A stretch of 64,000 bases of DNA from Rhodobacteraceae bacterium Alg238-R152. Its GTDB lineage: Bacteria; Pseudomonadota; Alphaproteobacteria; Rhodobacterales; Rhodobacteraceae. The stretch is taken from contig UNRJ01000002.1 in NCBI GenBank assembly GCA_900537125.1, positions 310,001 to 374,000 of the forward strand. Reading direction: 5' to 3'. This document shows, in pieces, positions 13,742 through 62,115 of this stretch. Position 1 is the stretch's first letter. Each line of letters starts with the position of its first letter. The position numbers were made by a program, and so were the translations under genes. The notes beneath the pieces are model-generated. The model saw only the letters and a list, made by a program, of their open reading frames with translations. It was not told the DNA's origin and ran no database searches.

Positions 13742-14653
13742 ATGACCGATCACGTCACCACACACCAGGCTACCGAAGATGCTCGGAACGAAGAGATCAA
13801 AATCTGGCTCAATGGCCGCGTTGTGCCCAAGGCAGAGGCGATGGTGTCGGTCTATGACAGCGGCTTCATGCTGGGAGACGGTGTGTGGGAAGGCCTGCGG
13901 CTCTATGATGGTCACTGGGCTTTCCTAGATGAACACATGGACCGCCTGTTTGAGGCCGCCAAAGCCATTGATCTGGACATTGGCATGGACAAATCTGGCG
14001 TGATCGCTGCCTTGGAAGCCACCCGTGCCGCCAATGAGATGACCACTAATGCCCATGCCCGCCTGATGGTCACACGCGGCGTAAAAACACGCCCGTTTCA
14101 ACACCCGTCGTTGAGTCAGCAAGGCCCAACGGTGACCATCATCATGGAACATTCCAAACCGTCGATCCCGCGCCCGATCCGGCTTGCCACCGTGCCGCAC
14201 ATTCGCGGCTTGCCGATGACGCAGGACCCCAAACTGAATTCGCATTCCAAACTCAACTGCATCCTTGCTTGTATCGCGGCGGAGAAAGCGGGTGCGGATG
14301 AGGCGCTGATGCTCGACATCAATGGCTTTGTGAACACCACCAACGCCTGCAACTTCTTCATTGTGCGCAAGGGCGCGGTTTGGACCTCCACCGGTGATTA
14401 CTGCATGAACGGCATCACCCGCCAAAAGGTGATCGACGTGTGCCGCGCCGATGGCATCCCGGTGTATGAGCGCAACTACTCACTGGTGGACACTTACGGT
14501 GCGGATGAAGCGTTTCTCACTGGCACGTTTGGTGCGCAGACCCCAGTTAGCGAGATTGACGGGCGGTCGATTGGCAGCGGGGAGATGGGCGAGATGACCA
14601 AGCACATCCGCAGTCTTTACAAAGATCTCGTTGTGCAAGACGCCAAGCCGTAA
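13742..14653 (+). CDS. Class IV aminotransferase (branched-chain/D-amino acid type)
   Basis: 303 residues with GAAGGGGA upstream of the ATG. Fold-type IV PLP features are visible: VSVYDSGFMLGDGVWEGLR near the N-terminus, the PLP lysine in DPKLNSHSKLNCILA, and EALMLDINGFVNTTNACNFF before the C-terminal GTFGAQTPV. It should transfer an amino group between an amino acid and a 2-oxo acid. It is not close enough to IlvE by eye to assign branched-chain substrates. The sulfotransferase-like gene follows 65 bases downstream, and the two look like a working pair. Confidence 0.85.
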   Translation: MTDHVTTHQATEDARNEEIKIWLNGRVVPKAEAMVSVYDSGFMLGDGVWEGLRLYDGHWAFLDEHMDRLFEAAKAIDLDIGMDKSGVIAALEATRAANEMTTNAHARLMVTRGVKTRPFQHPSLSQQGPTVTIIMEHSKPSIPRPIRLATVPHIRGLPMTQDPKLNSHSKLNCILACIAAEKAGADEALMLDINGFVNTTNACNFFIVRKGAVWTSTGDYCMNGITRQKVIDVCRADGIPVYERNYSLVDTYGADEAFLTGTFGAQTPVSEIDGRSIGSGEMGEMTKHIRSLYKDLVVQDAKP

Positions 14654-14671
14654 TCCCGAAATTCGCACTGT

Positions 14672-14704
14672 CGCGATACAGCCGCGATACCGATGCAAAA
14701 CCGA
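14672..14704 (+). repeat. Tandem 11-base repeat array (site 1)
   Basis: Units CGCGATACAGC (14672), CGCGATACCGA (14683) and a weaker TGCAAAACCGA (14694) follow each other without gaps. A near-copy, CGTAATCCCGA, spans the preceding aminotransferase stop at 14649-14659. The array ends two bases before the Shine-Dalgarno AGGAG (14706-14710) of the next gene. The same motif recurs at 27728 and 55666. Confidence 0.6.
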
Positions 14705-14718
14705 TAGGAGTTTGCCCC

Positions 14719-15432
14719 GTGAAAATTGCAATGTGGAGCGGCCCCCGCAACCTCTCAACCGCCATGATGTACGCCTTTGGCAATCGCGCCGATTGTGCCG
14801 TAGTAGACGAGCCTTTGTACGCCGCTTACCTCGCCATGACCGGGTTGGAGCACCCGATGGGCGAAGAGATTTTGGCGTCCCAAGATCAAGACCCGACCAA
14901 TGTGGTTGCTGACCTTGTTGGCGACACCCCCGGCGGCAAGTCTCACTTCTATCAAAAACACATGACGCAGCACATGATTGCTGGCGTGCCACGGGATTGG
15001 ATGCGTGAGGTCACCAACGTCTTCCTGTTGCGCCATCCCGCGCGCGTGATCGCGTCCTACGCCGCCAAACGTGAAAACCCCTCGCTCACCGACATCGGCT
15101 TTCCGCAGCAACTGGAGCTGATGCAGTTGGTTTCCAATTGGGGCCAGACACCGATCGTGATCGACAGCCATGACATTCGCGATGATCCGCGCGGCATGTT
15201 AGAAAAACTCTGTGATGCCATCGGGTTGGGATTTGATGACGCCATGTTGTCTTGGCCCAATGGTGGCCACAAAGATGACGGCGCATGGGCGCCGCATTGG
15301 TACAGCGCGGTCTGGGACTCTACCGGATTTGCCGGCGCTGAAGGCCGGTTGCCAGAGGTGCCTGAGACATTGCAGCCAGTGCTACAAGCGGCGTTGCCTC
15401 TTTATGAAGAGATGAAAGCGCATAAGCTTTAA
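14719..15432 (+). CDS. Sulfotransferase-like P-loop protein
   Basis: 237 residues from a GTG with AGGAG eight bases upstream. The N-terminus MWSGPRNLSTAMMYAF resembles the 5'-PSB loop of sulfotransferases. The second motif is LLRHPARVIASYAAKR, the usual 3'-phosphate binding segment. The protein is short and the exact acceptor is unknown. It follows the class IV aminotransferase, with which I recall related domains being fused in some plant proteins. The shared locus suggests a joint role in an amino- or sulfur-compound pathway, but this is inference. Confidence 0.7.
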   Translation: MKIAMWSGPRNLSTAMMYAFGNRADCAVVDEPLYAAYLAMTGLEHPMGEEILASQDQDPTNVVADLVGDTPGGKSHFYQKHMTQHMIAGVPRDWMREVTNVFLLRHPARVIASYAAKRENPSLTDIGFPQQLELMQLVSNWGQTPIVIDSHDIRDDPRGMLEKLCDAIGLGFDDAMLSWPNGGHKDDGAWAPHWYSAVWDSTGFAGAEGRLPEVPETLQPVLQAALPLYEEMKAHKL

Positions 15433-25882: not shown

Positions 25883-26474
25883 TCCACTCACACACATCAA
25901 GGCCGCGCTGTCTTGCGATAGCGCGGCCTCGTCTGATTTTGATCTCAACCCAGATGTGGTCCTGCCTAAGGGTCGTAAGCTGCGCCCCGCCGGTGTGCTT
26001 GTGCCCATCGAGATCAAACAAGGCATCCCTCACGTCATTCTCACCAAACGCGCCAGTCATCTGAAGCACCACCCGGGGCAGATCTCCTTTCCCGGTGGCA
26101 AGCAGGATGAGGGCGATGCAGATGTGATTGCCGCCGCGTTGCGAGAGGCGCGCGAAGAGATCGGCCTGCCGTCGGACAATGTCGAAGTTCTCGGCACATT
26201 GCCCACCCATGAAACGGTCACCAGCTTTCTGGTCACACCGGTTCTGGGCCATGTTAGAGACGTTTTTGACGTGATGCCGGAGCCTGGAGAGGTCGAGGAA
26301 GTCTTCTCCGTGCCTCTGTCTCACGTGACGGATCCAGCCTTCTTTTCGATCCAATCCCGCCGCTGGCAAGGGCAACGCCGTCACTACTTCACCGTGCCCT
26401 TTGGCCCCTATTACATCTGGGGTGCCACGGCCCGCATTCTGCGCGGTTTGGCGGAACAGGTGTCAGGCTCATGA
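25866..26474 (+). CDS. Nudix hydrolase, CoA pyrophosphatase-like (NudL type)
   Basis: 202 residues from the ATG at 25866 inside the end of hslO; an in-frame extension to 25815 is less likely. The segment LTKRASHLKHHPGQISFPGGKQ precedes the Nudix box (GGKQDEGD, then REAREEIGL). The upstream LxxRxxxLxxHxGQxxFPGG pattern is that of CoA-pyrophosphatase Nudix proteins. Activity would be splitting CoA to phosphopantetheine and 3',5'-ADP. cysQ in this window handles the latter kind of product, though the two are far apart. Confidence 0.85.
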   Translation: MPKAPDPLTHIKAALSCDSAASSDFDLNPDVVLPKGRKLRPAGVLVPIEIKQGIPHVILTKRASHLKHHPGQISFPGGKQDEGDADVIAAALREAREEIGLPSDNVEVLGTLPTHETVTSFLVTPVLGHVRDVFDVMPEPGEVEEVFSVPLSHVTDPAFFSIQSRRWQGQRRHYFTVPFGPYYIWGATARILRGLAEQVSGS

Positions 26475-27628
26475 AAGTCACCGGAGACTGGCTGACAGCT
26501 GCCCCAACACAGGCCGTTTGCGCCATGTTAGAGACACATGGACATCAAGCTTTGTTGGTTGGCGGCTGTGTACGTAACGCGCTTTTGGGCGTGCCGGTGA
26601 ATGACATCGACATCTCCACCGACGCCCACCCTGAGCGTGTCATGGAACTGGCCAAAAGCGCTGGGCTCAACGTCATTCCTACCGGTATTGAACATGGCAC
26701 AATTACCGTGGTGGCAGACGGCATCCCGCATGAGATCACCACATTCCGCCATGATGTGGAAACCGATGGCCGCCGTGCCGTGGTGGCCTTTTCCAACAAC
26801 GTCGAAGATGACGCCCGCCGCCGCGACTTCACCATGAACGCGCTTTATGCCACCTCCGATGGGACGGTGGTTGATCCGCTGGATGGCATCGCCGATCTAA
26901 AGGCCCGCCGCTTACGCTTCATCGACAACGCTGAAGACCGCATCCGCGAAGATTATCTGCGCATCCTGCGCTACTTCCGCTTTCACGCCTATTATGGCGA
27001 CCCATCTGAGGGCATGGACCCCGAAGCGCTCGCCGCCATTGCCAGCAACATCGACGGCCTTGCGTCCCTGTCCCGCGAACGTGTCGGCAGCGAGACTGTC
27101 AAACTTATGGCCGCCCCAGACCCGGCCCCCGCCGTGGCCGCCATGCGCCAAATCGGCGTGCTCACGGTAATCCTGCCCGGCACAGATGATCGCGCATTGG
27201 CCCCGTTGGTGCATCTGGAAGAGATGTCTGCCGTGCCCATCGATCCAATCCGTCGTCTGACGGTTTTGGGAGGCGAGGGCATCGCCGAAGCGCTGCGGTT
27301 GTCCAAGAAAACCGCCCGGCACCGTGATGTGTTGCGAAACGGGCTTGAATCGTCCGACTCCCCCGGTGCGCTGGGCTATCGTTTTGGCGAAGAGGCCGCG
27401 ACCTCGATCCTGCTCCTTCGGGCTGCAATGTTTGAATCGCCATTGATGCCAGATGCACTGACGGCCGCCAAAATCGGTGCAAGCGCCGAGTTTCCAATTC
27501 GGCCAGCTGACCTCATCGACCGGTTTCAAGGCGCGGCGCTGGGTAACGCTCTCAAGGAACTCGAATCAGCCTGGATTGCTTCAGAGTTCTCCTTGAGCAA
27601 GGCAGAGCTGCTCGAGACGCTTTCCTGA
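26471..27628 (+). CDS. cca: CCA tRNA nucleotidyltransferase
   Basis: 385 residues, starting ATGA over the stop of the Nudix gene. The class II nucleotidyltransferase head has GGCVRNALLG at 31-40 and metal-binding D45 and D47 (NDIDIST). Next come RRRDFTMNALY and the nucleotide-choosing EDRIREDYLRILRYFRFHA. The C-terminal half is shorter and more divergent than in E. coli and lacks an HD domain signature. It adds or repairs the CCA end of tRNAs. Confidence 0.93.
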   Translation: MKVTGDWLTAAPTQAVCAMLETHGHQALLVGGCVRNALLGVPVNDIDISTDAHPERVMELAKSAGLNVIPTGIEHGTITVVADGIPHEITTFRHDVETDGRRAVVAFSNNVEDDARRRDFTMNALYATSDGTVVDPLDGIADLKARRLRFIDNAEDRIREDYLRILRYFRFHAYYGDPSEGMDPEALAAIASNIDGLASLSRERVGSETVKLMAAPDPAPAVAAMRQIGVLTVILPGTDDRALAPLVHLEEMSAVPIDPIRRLTVLGGEGIAEALRLSKKTARHRDVLRNGLESSDSPGALGYRFGEEAATSILLLRAAMFESPLMPDALTAAKIGASAEFPIRPADLIDRFQGAALGNALKELESAWIASEFSLSKAELLETLS

Positions 27629-27678: not shown

Positions 27679-27727
27679 CCTGCGCGCGTTGTGTTTACCT
27701 GCTCTGGCACCACAAAACCCCCACCTC

Positions 27728-27760
27728 CGCGATACAGCCGTCATACTGACGTAATACCGA
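27728..27760 (+). repeat. Tandem 11-base repeat array (site 2)
   Basis: Three gapless units: CGCGATACAGC, CGTCATACTGA and CGTAATACCGA. All share CG..ATAC.G in the same phase. It lies 195-227 bases before the ABC exporter start. The first 13 bases equal those of site 1; the last unit plus its flank (CGACGTGCC, then AAGG) nearly matches site 3 read from the other strand. Confidence 0.7.
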
Positions 27761-27954
27761 CGTGCCAAAGGTCAGGTAAATCATAGGTTGACGCAAACGC
27801 AACGCTGCGCCAGCATGCCGACAGCTCAAACATGAGAAGGAGTGCAAGATGTATCGCGGGATCTGGTTTTCATAAGCCAATCTGACTGCCGTGGCAGCCA
27901 GAGATGGCGAGTCACTTCATTTTGCACAATCCACTGTATTTTCAGGACATTCTC

Positions 27955-29796
27955 ATGTTCAAGTTTTTCGAGACCCTTGTTGACCCCTATTGCGACTACA
28001 ACGAAGTAGATGCGCCCCCCACTAAGCTGTGGCCATTTATGCGTGAGTACGCCAAGCCGTTCCGCAAAGTCTTTGTTTTTGCAACGATAATGTCGATTAT
28101 CGTTGCCGCTGTAGAGATCGGAATGATCGCCTACATGGGCCGTATTGTGGACCTGTTGACCGGCGATCCCTCCCAAGTTTGGGCTGCCCATCGCACCGAG
28201 TTCATTCTGGTCATCCTTTTTGTGCTGATCCTGCGCCCGGCCCTACAAGCCTTCGACGTGCTGCTGCTCAACAACACCGTGCTGCCCAACTTCGGTACCC
28301 TGATCCGTTGGCGTGCCCATAAACATGTTTTGCGTCAATCGGTTGGCTGGTTTGAAAATGACTTCGCCGGCCGGATTGCAAATCGCATTATGCAAACCCC
28401 ACCAGCTGCTGGTGAAGCGGTGTTTCAGGTGTTTGACGCCATCACTTTTTCCCTTGCCTATGTGCTTGGTGCAGCTTTCCTTTTGGCTGATGCGGATCCA
28501 CGTTTGGTGTTGCCCATGTTGGGGTGGCTGGTGCTCTACGGCTGCTTGGTGCGTTGGACCGTGAAACGGGTTGGCCCGGCGTCTCAGAAAGCCTCAGATG
28601 CCCGGTCTCAGGTGACTGGCCGCGTGGTCGATGCCTACACCAATATTCACTCGGTGAAGCTCTTTGCCCATAACAAGCGCGAGCTGGACTATGCAAAGGA
28701 AGCCATTGAATACACACGTGAAACATTCCAACAGGAAATGCGCATCTTTACCCTGATGGATGTGATGTTGGTGACGCTCAATGGGCTTCTGGTAGTGAGT
28801 GTTGTTGGCTGGGCGATTTGGCTCTGGATGCAAGGTCTCGCCAGTGTTGGAGTGGTGGCGGCGGCAACTGCCTTGAGCTTACGACTCAATGCCATGACGG
28901 GTTGGATCATGTGGGCGTTGACCTCGTTCTTCCGTCAACTTGGTGTTGTGGCTGAAGGTATGGAAACCATCGCACAACCCATTGATTTGGTTGATTCTCG
29001 CGACGCCAAATCGCTGAGCTTCACCGATGGCAAAATAGAGCTGGATGGGTTGTCTCATCACTATGGTCGTGACAGCGGTGGCTTGGACAATGTCTCCCTG
29101 ACAATTGCACCAGGGGAGAAGATCGGCCTGATTGGTCGCTCGGGGGCCGGTAAGTCCACGCTGGTGAAGCTGCTTTTGAGATTTTATGACACCGAAAAGG
29201 GTCGCATCTTGATCGATGGCCAGGATATTTCTGCCATCACGCAAGACAGCCTGCGACATCTGATCGGCATGGTGCAACAGGACAGTTCGCTGATGCACCG
29301 GTCTGTTCGCGATAACCTGCTATACGGTCGTCCTGATGCGACAGAAGCGGAGATGGTCGAGGCGGCAAAGAAAGCAGAAGCGCATGAGTTCATCCTGGAA
29401 CTCGAAGATCCACAGGGGCGGACTGGCTATGATGCGCATGTGGGGGAGCGCGGTGTAAAATTGTCTGGAGGTCAGCGTCAGCGTATCACTTTGGCGCGTG
29501 TGATTCTGAAAGACGCGCCAATTTTGTTGCTAGACGAGGCCACCAGCGCGTTGGACAGTGAAGTAGAAGCTGCCATTCAACGCACACTGTACGGCATGAT
29601 GGCTGGTAAAACCGTGATTGCCATTGCGCACCGCCTGTCCACGATTGCCGAGATGGACCGTATTTTGGTTTTAGATCAGGGGCGTATCGTGGAGCAGGGC
29701 AGCCATAGGGAGTTGTTGGCGCAAAATGGTCTCTATGCAGGCTTCTGGGCGCGCCAGTCCGGCGGCTTCCTGAATGCAGATGAGGCGGCCGAGTAA
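27955..29796 (+). CDS. ABC exporter, fused permease and ATPase
   Basis: 613 residues from the ATG at 27955 with AGGA eight bases upstream; a start at 27904 adds 17 residues. The N-terminal half has six membrane helices of the exporter (type IV) fold, for example MSIIVAAVEIGMIAYM and LVVSVVGWAIWLWMQG. The ATPase half carries Walker A GRSGAGKST, the Q-loop MVQQDS, signature LSGGQRQR and Walker B ILLLDEATSALD. It resembles MsbA/LmrA-type homodimeric half-transporters. Substrate unknown; lipids, peptides or drugs are all possible. A terminator-like hairpin follows its stop. Confidence 0.92.
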   Translation: MFKFFETLVDPYCDYNEVDAPPTKLWPFMREYAKPFRKVFVFATIMSIIVAAVEIGMIAYMGRIVDLLTGDPSQVWAAHRTEFILVILFVLILRPALQAFDVLLLNNTVLPNFGTLIRWRAHKHVLRQSVGWFENDFAGRIANRIMQTPPAAGEAVFQVFDAITFSLAYVLGAAFLLADADPRLVLPMLGWLVLYGCLVRWTVKRVGPASQKASDARSQVTGRVVDAYTNIHSVKLFAHNKRELDYAKEAIEYTRETFQQEMRIFTLMDVMLVTLNGLLVVSVVGWAIWLWMQGLASVGVVAAATALSLRLNAMTGWIMWALTSFFRQLGVVAEGMETIAQPIDLVDSRDAKSLSFTDGKIELDGLSHHYGRDSGGLDNVSLTIAPGEKIGLIGRSGAGKSTLVKLLLRFYDTEKGRILIDGQDISAITQDSLRHLIGMVQQDSSLMHRSVRDNLLYGRPDATEAEMVEAAKKAEAHEFILELEDPQGRTGYDAHVGERGVKLSGGQRQRITLARVILKDAPILLLDEATSALDSEVEAAIQRTLYGMMAGKTVIAIAHRLSTIAEMDRILVLDQGRIVEQGSHRELLAQNGLYAGFWARQSGGFLNADEAAE

Positions 29797-54836: not shown

Positions 54837-55598
54837 CTAGAGGAGACCTTCGCTGCGGAAGCTGAGTTCCTGAGATTTTCCAATGATAATATGGTCATGC
54901 AAGGTCAGGCACAGCGCCTGGCAGGCCAAGTTGATCTGTTGGGTCATGGTGATGTCGGTCTCTGAGGGCGTGGGATCCCCTGACGGGTGATTGTGCACCA
55001 GAATCAAGGCACTGGCATTGAGTTCTAGCGCGCGTTTGGCCACTTCGCGGGGGTAAACCGGGACATGGTTTACGGTGCCTTGCGCTTGGGCCTCGTCCGC
55101 GATCAGCGTGTTTTTGGTGTCCAAAAACAACACTCTAAACTGTTCCGTGTCGCGGTGCGCCATGGTGGTATGACAATAGTCCAGCAGGGTTTGCCAATTC
55201 GAGAGCACGCGGCGGTTCATGACACGGGCGCGGGCGAGGCGGTGGGCGGCGGCTTCGACCACTTTCAACTCACAGATCACAGCATCACCAACGCCTTTGA
55301 CGGCGTTCAATCGTGCAATTGGCGCGCTGACCACGTTGTTGAAATCTCCAAATATTTCAATGAGCTTGTGGGCAAGTGGTTTCACATCCTGACGCGGGAT
55401 GGCGCGAAAAAGCAGGAGTTCGAGCAGCTCATAATCCGGCAGTGCGTCGGCGCCGCCGGAGAGAAACCGCGTGCGCAGTCGCTTGCGATGATCAGTCAGG
55501 TAAGACGGGAGTTTCCCTGAAGGAAGGGGGGCAATAGGGGCCTCATCCGCTTCAAATAGCGGCAATGGCCTTTCTTTAAAGTCACCTGCCTTGGACAT
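54837..55598 (-). CDS. radC: RadC-family JAB1/MPN-domain protein
   Basis: 253 residues. The N-terminal helix-hairpin-helix part (FNNVVSAPIARLNAVKGVG) precedes the JAB domain. Zinc is held by HNHPSGDPTPSETD, the H-x-H-x7-S-x2-D motif, with a Glu upstream. The old DNA-repair role of RadC is disputed; the activity of this family is unknown. The convergent neighbour stops one base away. Confidence 0.93.
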   Translation of the reverse strand: MSKAGDFKERPLPLFEADEAPIAPLPSGKLPSYLTDHRKRLRTRFLSGGADALPDYELLELLLFRAIPRQDVKPLAHKLIEIFGDFNNVVSAPIARLNAVKGVGDAVICELKVVEAAAHRLARARVMNRRVLSNWQTLLDYCHTTMAHRDTEQFRVLFLDTKNTLIADEAQAQGTVNHVPVYPREVAKRALELNASALILVHNHPSGDPTPSETDITMTQQINLACQALCLTLHDHIIIGKSQELSFRSEGLL

Positions 55599-55665
55599 GT
55601 CTTAAGTTTGTCCAAACATGGTGAACCAAAGGTTAATGGGCTGCCCAAATTGGCCCTTAGGGACG

Positions 55666-55698
55666 TCGGTATTACGTCTGTATTGCGACTGTATGGCG
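55666..55698 (-). repeat. Tandem 11-base repeat array (site 3)
   Basis: Read on the minus strand: CGCCATACAGT, CGCAATACAGA, CGTAATACCGA, again gapless and in phase. The orientation is toward radC, 68 bases away, while the binding-protein gene starts 105 bases away on the other side. The array and its CGACGTCCC flank nearly match site 2. Confidence 0.7.
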
Positions 55699-55802
55699 GA
55701 GGTCCCAATTTTGTTAACATTTGGGCTGAGATACGCGGTTGTGATGGCTGGGTGAACCTGAGAGTGTGGCTGCAACGAAAATTGAGTTTGGCAGGATAAG
55801 TG

Positions 55803-56642
55803 ATGAAACGTTTTTTGATGCCCTTTCTGGCCGGGGTATTTCTGGCTGGCGCTGCCCATGCACAGACAATCGACCGTATCAAGGAAACCGGACTGCTGAA
55901 ATTGGGCTATCGGTTGGATGCTGCGCCGCTGTCATTTCAAACAGAAGAGGGTGGACCCGCGGGCTATTCGCCAATGGTGTGTGCGGAGCTGGCGCAGGGT
56001 ATTTTAAACGCGCTGCAGATACCAAATCTCGACGTCGAATTTGTGCCGGTTGGCATGCAAGATCAGTTTGAGAAAGTGGCGGCTGGTGAGATTGACCTTT
56101 TGTGTGGGGCTTCTTCTATTACGTTGGCACGTCGCGAGATTGTGGATTTCTCGATTCCCACTTTTGCAGATGGCACAACGGTGATGCTTCCTCTGAACGG
56201 GTCAGAGAGTTTTGCCGACCTCTCGGGCAAAAAACTGGGTGTGCGGCGCGACAGCACCACGGAAACCGCGCTGAACAACACCTTGGCCTCAACGGCGACC
56301 TTTGCCGAGGTTGTGCGTTTTAACGATCACGGTGCCGCTATGAAGGCCATGGAAAACGGGGAATTGGACGCCTACTTTGGCGACCAGTCCATTTTGGCCA
56401 GCCTGTGGATCAACAGCCCGCAACGCGACAATATGAAAGTCAGCAACAATCTCTTGACGATTGAAAAACACGGATTGGCAATGGCGCGCGGTGATACGGA
56501 ATTCCGGCTGTTGATCGACCGCCTGCTGTCTACCATGTATGCGATTGGTGCGATGCAGGGTATTTTCCAACAGACCCTGCCGGGTGTGCAGCCAGGAGAC
56601 ATTCACCGAGCAATCTTCACCATGGCGCCAATTGTTGAGTAA
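55803..56642 (+). CDS. Amino-acid-type ABC transporter substrate-binding protein
   Basis: 279 residues from the ATG at 55803. The signal peptide is MKRFLMPFLAGVFLAGAAHA. The mature part shows IKETGLLKLGYRLDAAPLSF, AGYSPMVCAELAQ and AGEIDLLCGASSITLARR, the type II (GltI-like) amino-acid binding fold. The ligand should be an amino acid such as glutamate or aspartate. No permease or ATPase gene is next to it, so it serves a transporter coded elsewhere. Confidence 0.9.
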   Translation: MKRFLMPFLAGVFLAGAAHAQTIDRIKETGLLKLGYRLDAAPLSFQTEEGGPAGYSPMVCAELAQGILNALQIPNLDVEFVPVGMQDQFEKVAAGEIDLLCGASSITLARREIVDFSIPTFADGTTVMLPLNGSESFADLSGKKLGVRRDSTTETALNNTLASTATFAEVVRFNDHGAAMKAMENGELDAYFGDQSILASLWINSPQRDNMKVSNNLLTIEKHGLAMARGDTEFRLLIDRLLSTMYAIGAMQGIFQQTLPGVQPGDIHRAIFTMAPIVE

Positions 56643-61297: not shown

Positions 61298-62115
61298 CGA
61301 CGCGCGCTCCAAGAGAGGGACGCGTGTTTGCGGGTGTAGAATTCCCCCATCAGCCCAACCATGAGGAGTACAACACCCACGATGATTGGATACTCGATGG
61401 ATGAGTTGCGGGGGAAGTAGTTGATAAAGGCAAAGCCACGGGCCTGATCAATGCTGTGAAAAAGGGGATTCCAGTCAAACATCGTCAACATAAAGGGGGG
61501 CAAAGTATTGGCGACAAACATTTTGCCTGAGGCGATCATGTTGGCGCGGGCATAGATTGTGTTGGCGATACCTACAAAGGTTGGGAACCAGGGTTTGAGC
61601 GCCAAAAACACAGTGCCGATGGCCAAGCCGGTGAACCAAGCAACCAGCAACATGCCAAACGTTGGAATGGGTTGGTCGATGTCGAACGGCGTGAATGCCA
61701 CGTGGTAGACAAACAGGACCGCAGCCAAAGACAAAACCTGAATGTAGAGGGAGCCAAGAGCTGCGGAGAGAATGGCGATGATGGTGTTCATCGGTGCGTG
61801 TTTCATCATTGGCGATGCTGGCCCCTCAGAGTTGACCACAGCCGACATGGTTTTGGTGTGGGTCATAAAGAGAAAGATGCCAGACATGATATAAATCAGG
61901 AAGTCGCCACGCAGGGCGGAGCCGCGCAGGCCAAGTACGGAGAACAGGACATAGAATGCCATTACAAAAATCACGGTTTGCAGCATGTTCATGGCAATCG
62001 ACATGAGCGCGTTGCCATGAGTTTTGCGCACACTGCGAACAATCGCGTGATAGATCAGTTCGAGGAGATTTAACGCCGAAGCGAAGGTTGTTTTGGGTGC
62101 GGTTTGTTGAAACAT
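61294..62115 (-). CDS. ABC-2-type polysaccharide export permease (KpsM/Wzm-like)
   Basis: 273 residues with about six membrane helices (MLQTVIFVMAFYVLFSVLG, VLSLAAVLFVYHVAF, GMLLVAWFTGLAIGTVFLAL, PIIVGVVLLMVGLMGEFY). WNPLFHSIDQARGFAF is the usual NPL.H..D..R segment of these permeases. It would pass a capsule or O-antigen chain across the inner membrane with a separate ATPase (KpsT). No such ATPase gene is adjacent. Nearby kdsB and a glycosyltransferase support a polysaccharide role. Confidence 0.87.
   Translation of the reverse strand: MFQQTAPKTTFASALNLLELIYHAIVRSVRKTHGNALMSIAMNMLQTVIFVMAFYVLFSVLGLRGSALRGDFLIYIMSGIFLFMTHTKTMSAVVNSEGPASPMMKHAPMNTIIAILSAALGSLYIQVLSLAAVLFVYHVAFTPFDIDQPIPTFGMLLVAWFTGLAIGTVFLALKPWFPTFVGIANTIYARANMIASGKMFVANTLPPFMLTMFDWNPLFHSIDQARGFAFINYFPRNSSIEYPIIVGVVLLMVGLMGEFYTRKHASLSWSARR

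Follow-up and report, generated by a model that had tools for sequence, protein, structure and literature searches.

In Rhodobacteraceae bacterium Alg238-R152, three gapless 11-base units, CGCGATACAGC, CGTCATACTGA and CGTAATACCGA, occupy positions 27728-27760 of the window, by which we mean the whole stretch of 64,000 nucleotides analysed here; they fall in the gap that separates a CCA tRNA nucleotidyltransferase-like gene from an ABC exporter gene. An earlier note on this DNA had reported these units, which are present as written, and had pointed to similar arrays at 14672 and, reversed, near 55666. Both of the latter were recovered on searching the window: the two-unit pattern CGNNATACNGNCGNNATACNG, at no more than one mismatch, gave five matches (14672, 27728 and 27739 on the plus strand, 55667 and 55678 on the minus strand), and a three-unit pattern gave four matches, one of them overlapping, at the same three places, with 0.00 matches expected from 100 shuffles in each case. 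The description of the element as an exact tandem repeat holds for its period, which is exactly 11, but not for its units, which are not identical; at 14672 two good units are followed by a degenerate third (TGCAAAACCGA). The window thus contains three arrays, two on the plus and one on the minus strand, which are given here with their neighbouring genes:

13742-14653, plus strand: aminotransferase class IV gene
14665-14708, plus strand: array B, units GCACTGTCGCG, ATACAGCCGCG, ATACCGATGCA and AAACCGATAGG; the weakest of the three arrays in the window
14719-15432, plus strand: Sulfotransfer_5 gene
26471-27628, plus strand: CCA tRNA nucleotidyltransferase-like gene
27721-27764, plus strand: array A, degenerate unit CCACCTCCGCG (27721-27731), then ATACAGCCGTC (27732-27742), ATACTGACGTA (27743-27753) and ATACCGACGTG (27754-27764); no mismatches to the three-unit pattern, frame and left unit set from the 77-site profile described below
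27955-29796, plus strand: ABC exporter gene
54837-55598, minus strand: radC, forming a divergent gap with the SBP_bac_3 gene
55662-55705, minus strand: array C, degenerate ACCTCCGCC with the two bases preceding it (55705-55695), then ATACAGTCGCA, ATACAGACGTA and ATACCGACGTC
55803-56642, plus strand: SBP_bac_3 gene

The final unit of array B overlaps the likely ribosome-binding site on the side of the Sulfotransfer_5 gene. Ahead of the ABC exporter gene, a short upstream ORF (MYRGIWFS*, 27849-27875) follows a promoter-like TTGACG..CAGCAT and looks like a leader-peptide attenuator; similar MYRGIW-type upstream ORFs are seen in several Shimia and related loci. A known structured RNA was rejected as an identity for the arrays, as an Rfam scan of the window placed no family at them. 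The sole match of that scan was Cis2_sRNA (RF02645, the Ruegeria cis2 sRNA), at 61405-61548 with 80.6 bits.

Number, anatomy and placement of the element

The genome under study (G000; 4.27 Mb in 14 contigs) is placed in or beside Shimia, its best protein matches in one protein search being 92% identical and coming from Shimia and another Rhodobacteraceae. A search of this genome with the three-unit pattern AWACNGNCGNNAWACNGACGNNAWACCGACG at up to three mismatches gave 83 matches, against none for the reversed-pattern control, in agreement with the earlier claim that the element is not a one-off. These correspond to 79 loci, four of which carry two overlapping matches, and none of the 79 overlaps a gene called by a simple codon-usage ORF scorer. 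Random occurrence across coding DNA, which the earlier note had asked about, is therefore not what is observed.

A profile of 77 of the 79 loci (L086 and L087, two copies of a contig-end repeat, being omitted) reveals an element of about 44 bp, composed of one degenerate and three further head-to-tail units of 11 bp. The leftmost, degenerate unit has the consensus GCACCTCCGCA, and the three main slots, in the best frame, read AAACAGYCGYR, ATACMGACGYA and ATACCGACGTG; as each slot has its own consensus, the element is directional. Weaker A/T-rich stretches flank it on both sides, and the two-base joints between units are often pyrimidine-purine (in 72, 66, 53 and 47 of the 77 sites at the four joints, respectively). 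The rhythm is specific to the 11-bp period, with 48 matches at 16/22 in the lag-11 self-similarity of the 79 loci against none at lags 10 and 13. Head-to-tail 11-bp repeats are the layout of OmpR/PhoB-type sites, such as the Pho box, and the likeness drawn in the earlier note is borne out in this respect by both the lag-11 similarity and the profile. The arrays are not palindromic, and no clear hairpin was found on folding the two consensus strands (z of -0.29 and -1.61). Three of the arrays at contig ends (L082, L086 and L087) are near-identical to each other and have near-identical flanks, and probably represent a repeated genomic region.

Read in the orientation of the array, the flanking genes of the 79 loci form 32 convergent, 19 ++, 18 -- and 6 divergent pairs, with four loci at contig ends. 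The baseline comprised 435 gaps no shorter than 60 bp, taken from the window, from 400 kb of the relative G004 and from another 400 kb of the relative G009; most of it thus comes from relatives, and an array itself lengthens its own gap. With these caveats, convergent gaps are enriched (32/75 versus 59/435; Fisher p 3e-8) and divergent gaps are depleted (6/75 versus 124/435; Fisher p 8e-5). Gene direction at the tandem loci is unbiased, and in 7 of the 32 convergent loci the array lies 0-6 bp from a stop codon. In a simple scan, 13 of 29 array-bearing convergent gaps contained an intrinsic terminator, while the figures for array-free gaps in two relatives were 19 of 31 and 11 of 18; terminators are thus about as frequent beside arrays as elsewhere, or somewhat rarer. 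No functional theme emerged among the flanking proteins (150 of 151 made), which fall into 242 Pfam families, the largest being ABC_tran with 9 members.

Orientation along the replichores

We scored the polarity of the G000 arrays in 3-kb loci from which the element itself had been masked out, and found 70 of the 79 on the C-rich strand. By class of gene pair, this strand carries the array in 30 of 32 convergent, 18 of 18 --, 16 of 19 ++ and 6 of 6 divergent loci, and in none of the 4 at contig ends. With 30 of the 32 convergent loci polar, gene direction cannot account for the polarity. Four of the nine exceptions are the contig-end loci, three of which have the near-identical flanks noted above. 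Arrays of five relatives show the same preference for the C-rich strand (G010 29/30, G013 18/20, G023 19/20, G004 13/15 and G017 13/15) in samples drawn from among the best-matching loci and not at random, and in G094, from another genus, 14 of 18 arrays match the local skew, several of the skew values being near zero.

The long contig C1 of G004 (2.38 Mb) allows the arrays to be followed across a skew transition. Here 23 of the 25 arrays that precede 1.45 Mb occupy the minus strand and 14 of the 18 beyond 1.5 Mb the plus strand (Fisher 3.5e-6), and the GC skew, in 20-kb samples, is +0.079 at 1.44 Mb but -0.121 at 1.56 Mb, so that array strand flips where the skew flips. The two plus-strand arrays at 832 and 849 kb fall where samples gave a skew close to zero. 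The density of arrays along the contig is even, at about 8-10 per 0.5 Mb, and does not rise toward the terminus, with 8, 9 and 8 arrays in the intervals 0-0.5, 0.5-1.0 and 1.0-1.45 Mb approaching the switch. In the window, the cumulative GC skew has its minimum at about 18-30 kb, the arrays before or within this interval being on the plus strand and the one after it on the minus strand; a replication origin or an inversion boundary may accordingly be situated within the window or close to it. If the G-rich strand is the leading one, the arrays point toward the origin and their complement reads from origin to terminus. Their orientation tracks replication rather than genes.

Conservation, dialects and phyletic spread

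Among 23 other genomes of the genus, 21 have at least one match and 20 have at least 45, with none in G005 and G012 and a single one in G009. A hidden dialect in the last of these was considered and rejected: a pattern-free lag-11 test on 400 kb of G009 detected no period-11 array, its single match at 16/22 not being an array. The existence of such genomes implies that the function of the arrays is dispensable or replaceable.

Where arrays are present their positions are stable. Of the 90 matches in the close relative G010 the best 30 were compared with G000: 29 of them have one or both flanking genes in common with a G000 array locus, 27 of them both, and all the shared sites have the same orientation. 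In these loci, which were picked for good matches and hence favour the array in comparisons of identity and constraint, G000 and G010 arrays are on average 90% identical at orthologous and 81% at non-orthologous sites, and the intergenic flanks are 80% identical in a generous alignment; substitutions between the two genomes amount to 0.17-0.41 at the two spacer bases of each unit, 0.21-0.28 at three other degenerate positions and 0-0.14 at the rest. The sites are thus both old and constrained. For the more distant G013 and G023, 20 array loci each were compared, of which 11 and 9, respectively, have a flanking gene in common with an array locus of G000, the array being on the same side and strand. 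The earlier note had looked to conservation before orthologous genes, and beside orthologues of the ABC exporter gene this holds in part: among the 12 loci listed from Shimia or its nearest relative, an array is present in 7, degenerate in 1 and not found in 4, and one is also present in Thiosulfatihalobacter.

At orthologous sites each genome nevertheless has its own unit sequence, that of G023 being, for instance, ATACCGACGCA ATACCGACGTG ATACCGACGTG. Such 'dialects' are to be expected if the sites drift together with the specificity of a protein. In the wider family, sampled with one genome per genus, 8 of 148 other genomes have a match, and 5 of these have at least 16, whereas 16 genomes from other families of the class gave no matches. 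Of 390 genomes in the order, 37 contain an exact core of three successive CCGACG-N5 repeats, which is strong in several genera (for example 80, 82, 69 and 42 matches) but absent from G000, whose dialect differs. A looser pattern gave 28 matches in G529 (control 0) and 22 in G467 (control 3), these looser family-wide patterns being noisy, as their reversed control matches many genomes; in G181 the control outnumbers the forward matches, the control pattern itself fitting the array of that genome. Arrays of this kind therefore extend beyond the genus in a patchy fashion, and lack of one pattern is not lack of the kind. Other dialects of 11-bp-phased arrays were observed in G467 (repeats of CAGACGCNNGC), G250 (CCGACGTTTTGCCGACGCAAATCCGACG), G549 and others.

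In three relatives (loci L212 of G023, L213 of G002 and L214 of G013) an array lies in frame within the coding sequence of valS, where it replaces a loop; among the 14 of 25 loci that lent themselves to parsing, the others retain a remnant of two units or nothing at all.

Comparison with known dispersed elements

A search of the open-licence literature yielded no description of these arrays, and three long array strings were absent from the papers listed. The closest parallels in orientation are KOPS and AIMS, which are strand-biased in each replichore, switch at the terminus and are thought to guide DNA translocation (PMC5993296, PMC13342612; KOPS, AIMS and dif are also covered in PMC7901474). 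The arrays resemble them in strand bias along the replichores and in the switch at the terminus. However, KOPS and AIMS are 8-bp words, the former biased to the leading strand and read by FtsK, against about 44 bp in four unequal units for the far rarer arrays, and the abundance of AIMS (and also KOPS) rises toward the terminus, unlike that of the arrays on G004:C1. In 400 kb of the latter contig, canonical KOPS (GGGNAGGG), a word that the arrays do not contain, is distributed 60:1 between leading and lagging strands. A normal KOPS set hence exists beside the arrays, and we rejected their interpretation as a KOPS substitute.

Several other systems share individual properties with the arrays. 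Tus/Ter and RTP/Ter fork traps are polar protein-binding sites with one orientation per replichore, a polarity that the arrays share, but the arrays number scores across the chromosome and have a direct-repeat anatomy. The palindromic matS sites of MatP are limited to the Ter region, whereas the arrays are neither palindromic nor confined to one region. The DNA uptake sequences of Neisseriaceae come in species-specific dialects of about 10-12 bp with many sites, and recall the arrays as 'dialects' of a dispersed signal, but are shorter and far more numerous, and are not known to be replication-polar. REP/BIME elements are short intergenic sequences, frequently at the 3' end of a gene, that reach dozens to hundreds of copies and are homogeneous per genome. 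The arrays are like them in their many short intergenic copies and homogeneity within a genome, but differ in lacking a strong palindrome, in their stable orthologous positions and direct-repeat units, and in that G000 has no Y1 transposase. The RAYT/REP identification was rejected on this absence (PF01797) together with the weak folding. OmpR-family operators, namely the Pho box and the CenR site, share the head-to-tail direct repeats and 11-bp period; the latter is described as an 11-bp-phased direct repeat TGA-N8-TGA, and in R. sphaeroides as lying upstream of promoters and mostly co-directional with the gene (PMC9275681). The arrays have a different core and a placement and orientation that are not promoter-like, and the CenR site was rejected as the 77-site consensus differs from TGA-N8-TGA.

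A putative direction mark on the chromosome

From the anatomy, number, placement, polarity, positional conservation and base-level constraint established above, we infer that the arrays might be binding sites for one sequence-specific protein that marks chromosome direction, serving maintenance rather than regulation of neighbouring genes; we favour this reading while giving it somewhat less than an even chance. Three aspects of the data point this way: 1) unequal 11-bp units on one helical face, with base-specific constraint and free spacers, fit a protein binding head to tail; 2) a genome-wide change of dialect at fixed positions fits a protein drifting in specificity together with its sites; and 3) a rule of orientation that does not depend on genes would suit a role in replication, in segregation or in the folding of the chromosome. 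The proposed protein would assemble head to tail on the three to four unequal units, one protomer per helical turn, giving a nucleoprotein complex that is asymmetric and points one way, at sites mostly in the transcription-light gaps between genes. The sites are orientated such that, along the C-rich strand, an array is read in the direction of the origin, its complement on the leading, G-rich strand being read from the origin toward the terminus. The complex could act as a direction mark that guides or gates something moving along the DNA, or that organises the replichores. Against this stand the imperfect polarity (9 of 79 loci fail, and only 14 of 18 arrays agree in G094), the array-poor G005, G012 and G009, the lack of a terminus enrichment of the KOPS or AIMS type, and the arrays in valS coding sequence of relatives.

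A specific form of the direction-mark explanation is a polar barrier to forks or translocases, comparable to Tus/Ter or RTP/Ter, which would permit passage from one face and stop it from the other all along the chromosome. An asymmetric multi-unit site, mostly outside genes, with one orientation per replichore and a flip at the skew switch is what such a barrier would present, but the arrays are evenly spread and do not cluster round the terminus, and neither Tus (PF05472) nor RTP (PF02334) was detected in any of 25 genomes of the genus, the E. coli and B. subtilis controls being positive. A Tus or RTP system as such was rejected on this result, and we consider the barrier in general unlikely. 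We also judge it unlikely that the arrays are an old mobile, REP-like repeat that spread by favouring the lagging-strand template and later became frozen in place, any later use being optional. Their many near-identical, mostly intergenic copies in a version homogeneous per genome would suit such an origin, as would the copies even in valS coding DNA, and a replication-strand bias is expected of single-strand (Y1) transposition. But the Y1 family is absent from G000 and from 17 of 24 Shimia genomes, and its matches in the other 7 are unrelated to the arrays (array-less G012 has one, G010, G013 and G023 none); further, 29 of the 30 sampled G010 sites are common to G000, no clear hairpin is formed, and frozen copies would lose the base-specific constraint with its 11-bp rhythm.

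The placement of the arrays raises two further alternatives centred on transcription. A bound array might act as a roadblock or insulator between neighbouring, especially convergent, transcription units, and the enrichment in convergent gaps and the frequent location a few bases from a stop codon speak for this; yet a transcription boundary explains neither the polarity within symmetric convergent gaps nor the 37 tandem loci without direction preference, and 13 of 29 array-bearing gaps still hold an intrinsic terminator; we consider it rather improbable. The least likely of the rivals, to which we attach very little weight, is that the arrays are operators of an OmpR/PhoB-type regulon. The head-to-tail units with slot-specific consensus are in its favour, as are arrays close to gene starts, as with array B (14665-14708) and the one ahead of the ABC exporter gene. 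The suggestion in the earlier note that the nearby genes could belong to one regulon is nevertheless not supported, in view of the convergent enrichment and avoidance of divergent gaps, the unbiased gene direction at tandem loci, the lack of a common function among the neighbours and the replication polarity of the arrays.

Returning to the direction mark, a more elaborate version of it, which we advance as possible but rather doubtful, is a novel maintenance system of Shimia and some other Rhodobacteraceae, in which a dedicated protein would read 44-bp arrays placed tens of kilobases apart on both replichores, independently of FtsK/KOPS, the protein and its arrays co-drifting into dialects at fixed sites. 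If this were true, an abundant group of marine bacteria would possess, in addition to KOPS, another system of direction marks whose sites are far longer, and replication or chromosome segregation would gain a DNA-binding protein and a process not described before. The arrays would, in addition, illustrate clearly how a protein can change in step with some eighty sites scattered over a genome. With some Shimia lacking arrays and dialects differing at shared loci, comparison of genomes should lead to the cognate protein, which could then be tested directly.

Plasmid and viral records

A search of PLSDB with the G000 consensus gave a partial match of 25 bases in 1 of 72,556 plasmid records, from Burkholderia, and a phage comparison of L359 yielded no lead. 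Among viral contigs in IMG/VR, a two-unit pattern gave five matches, four of which are not of this kind. The sole real array is one of four units at 7489-7508 of L358, a contig filed as viral, and is possibly host DNA beside a prophage.
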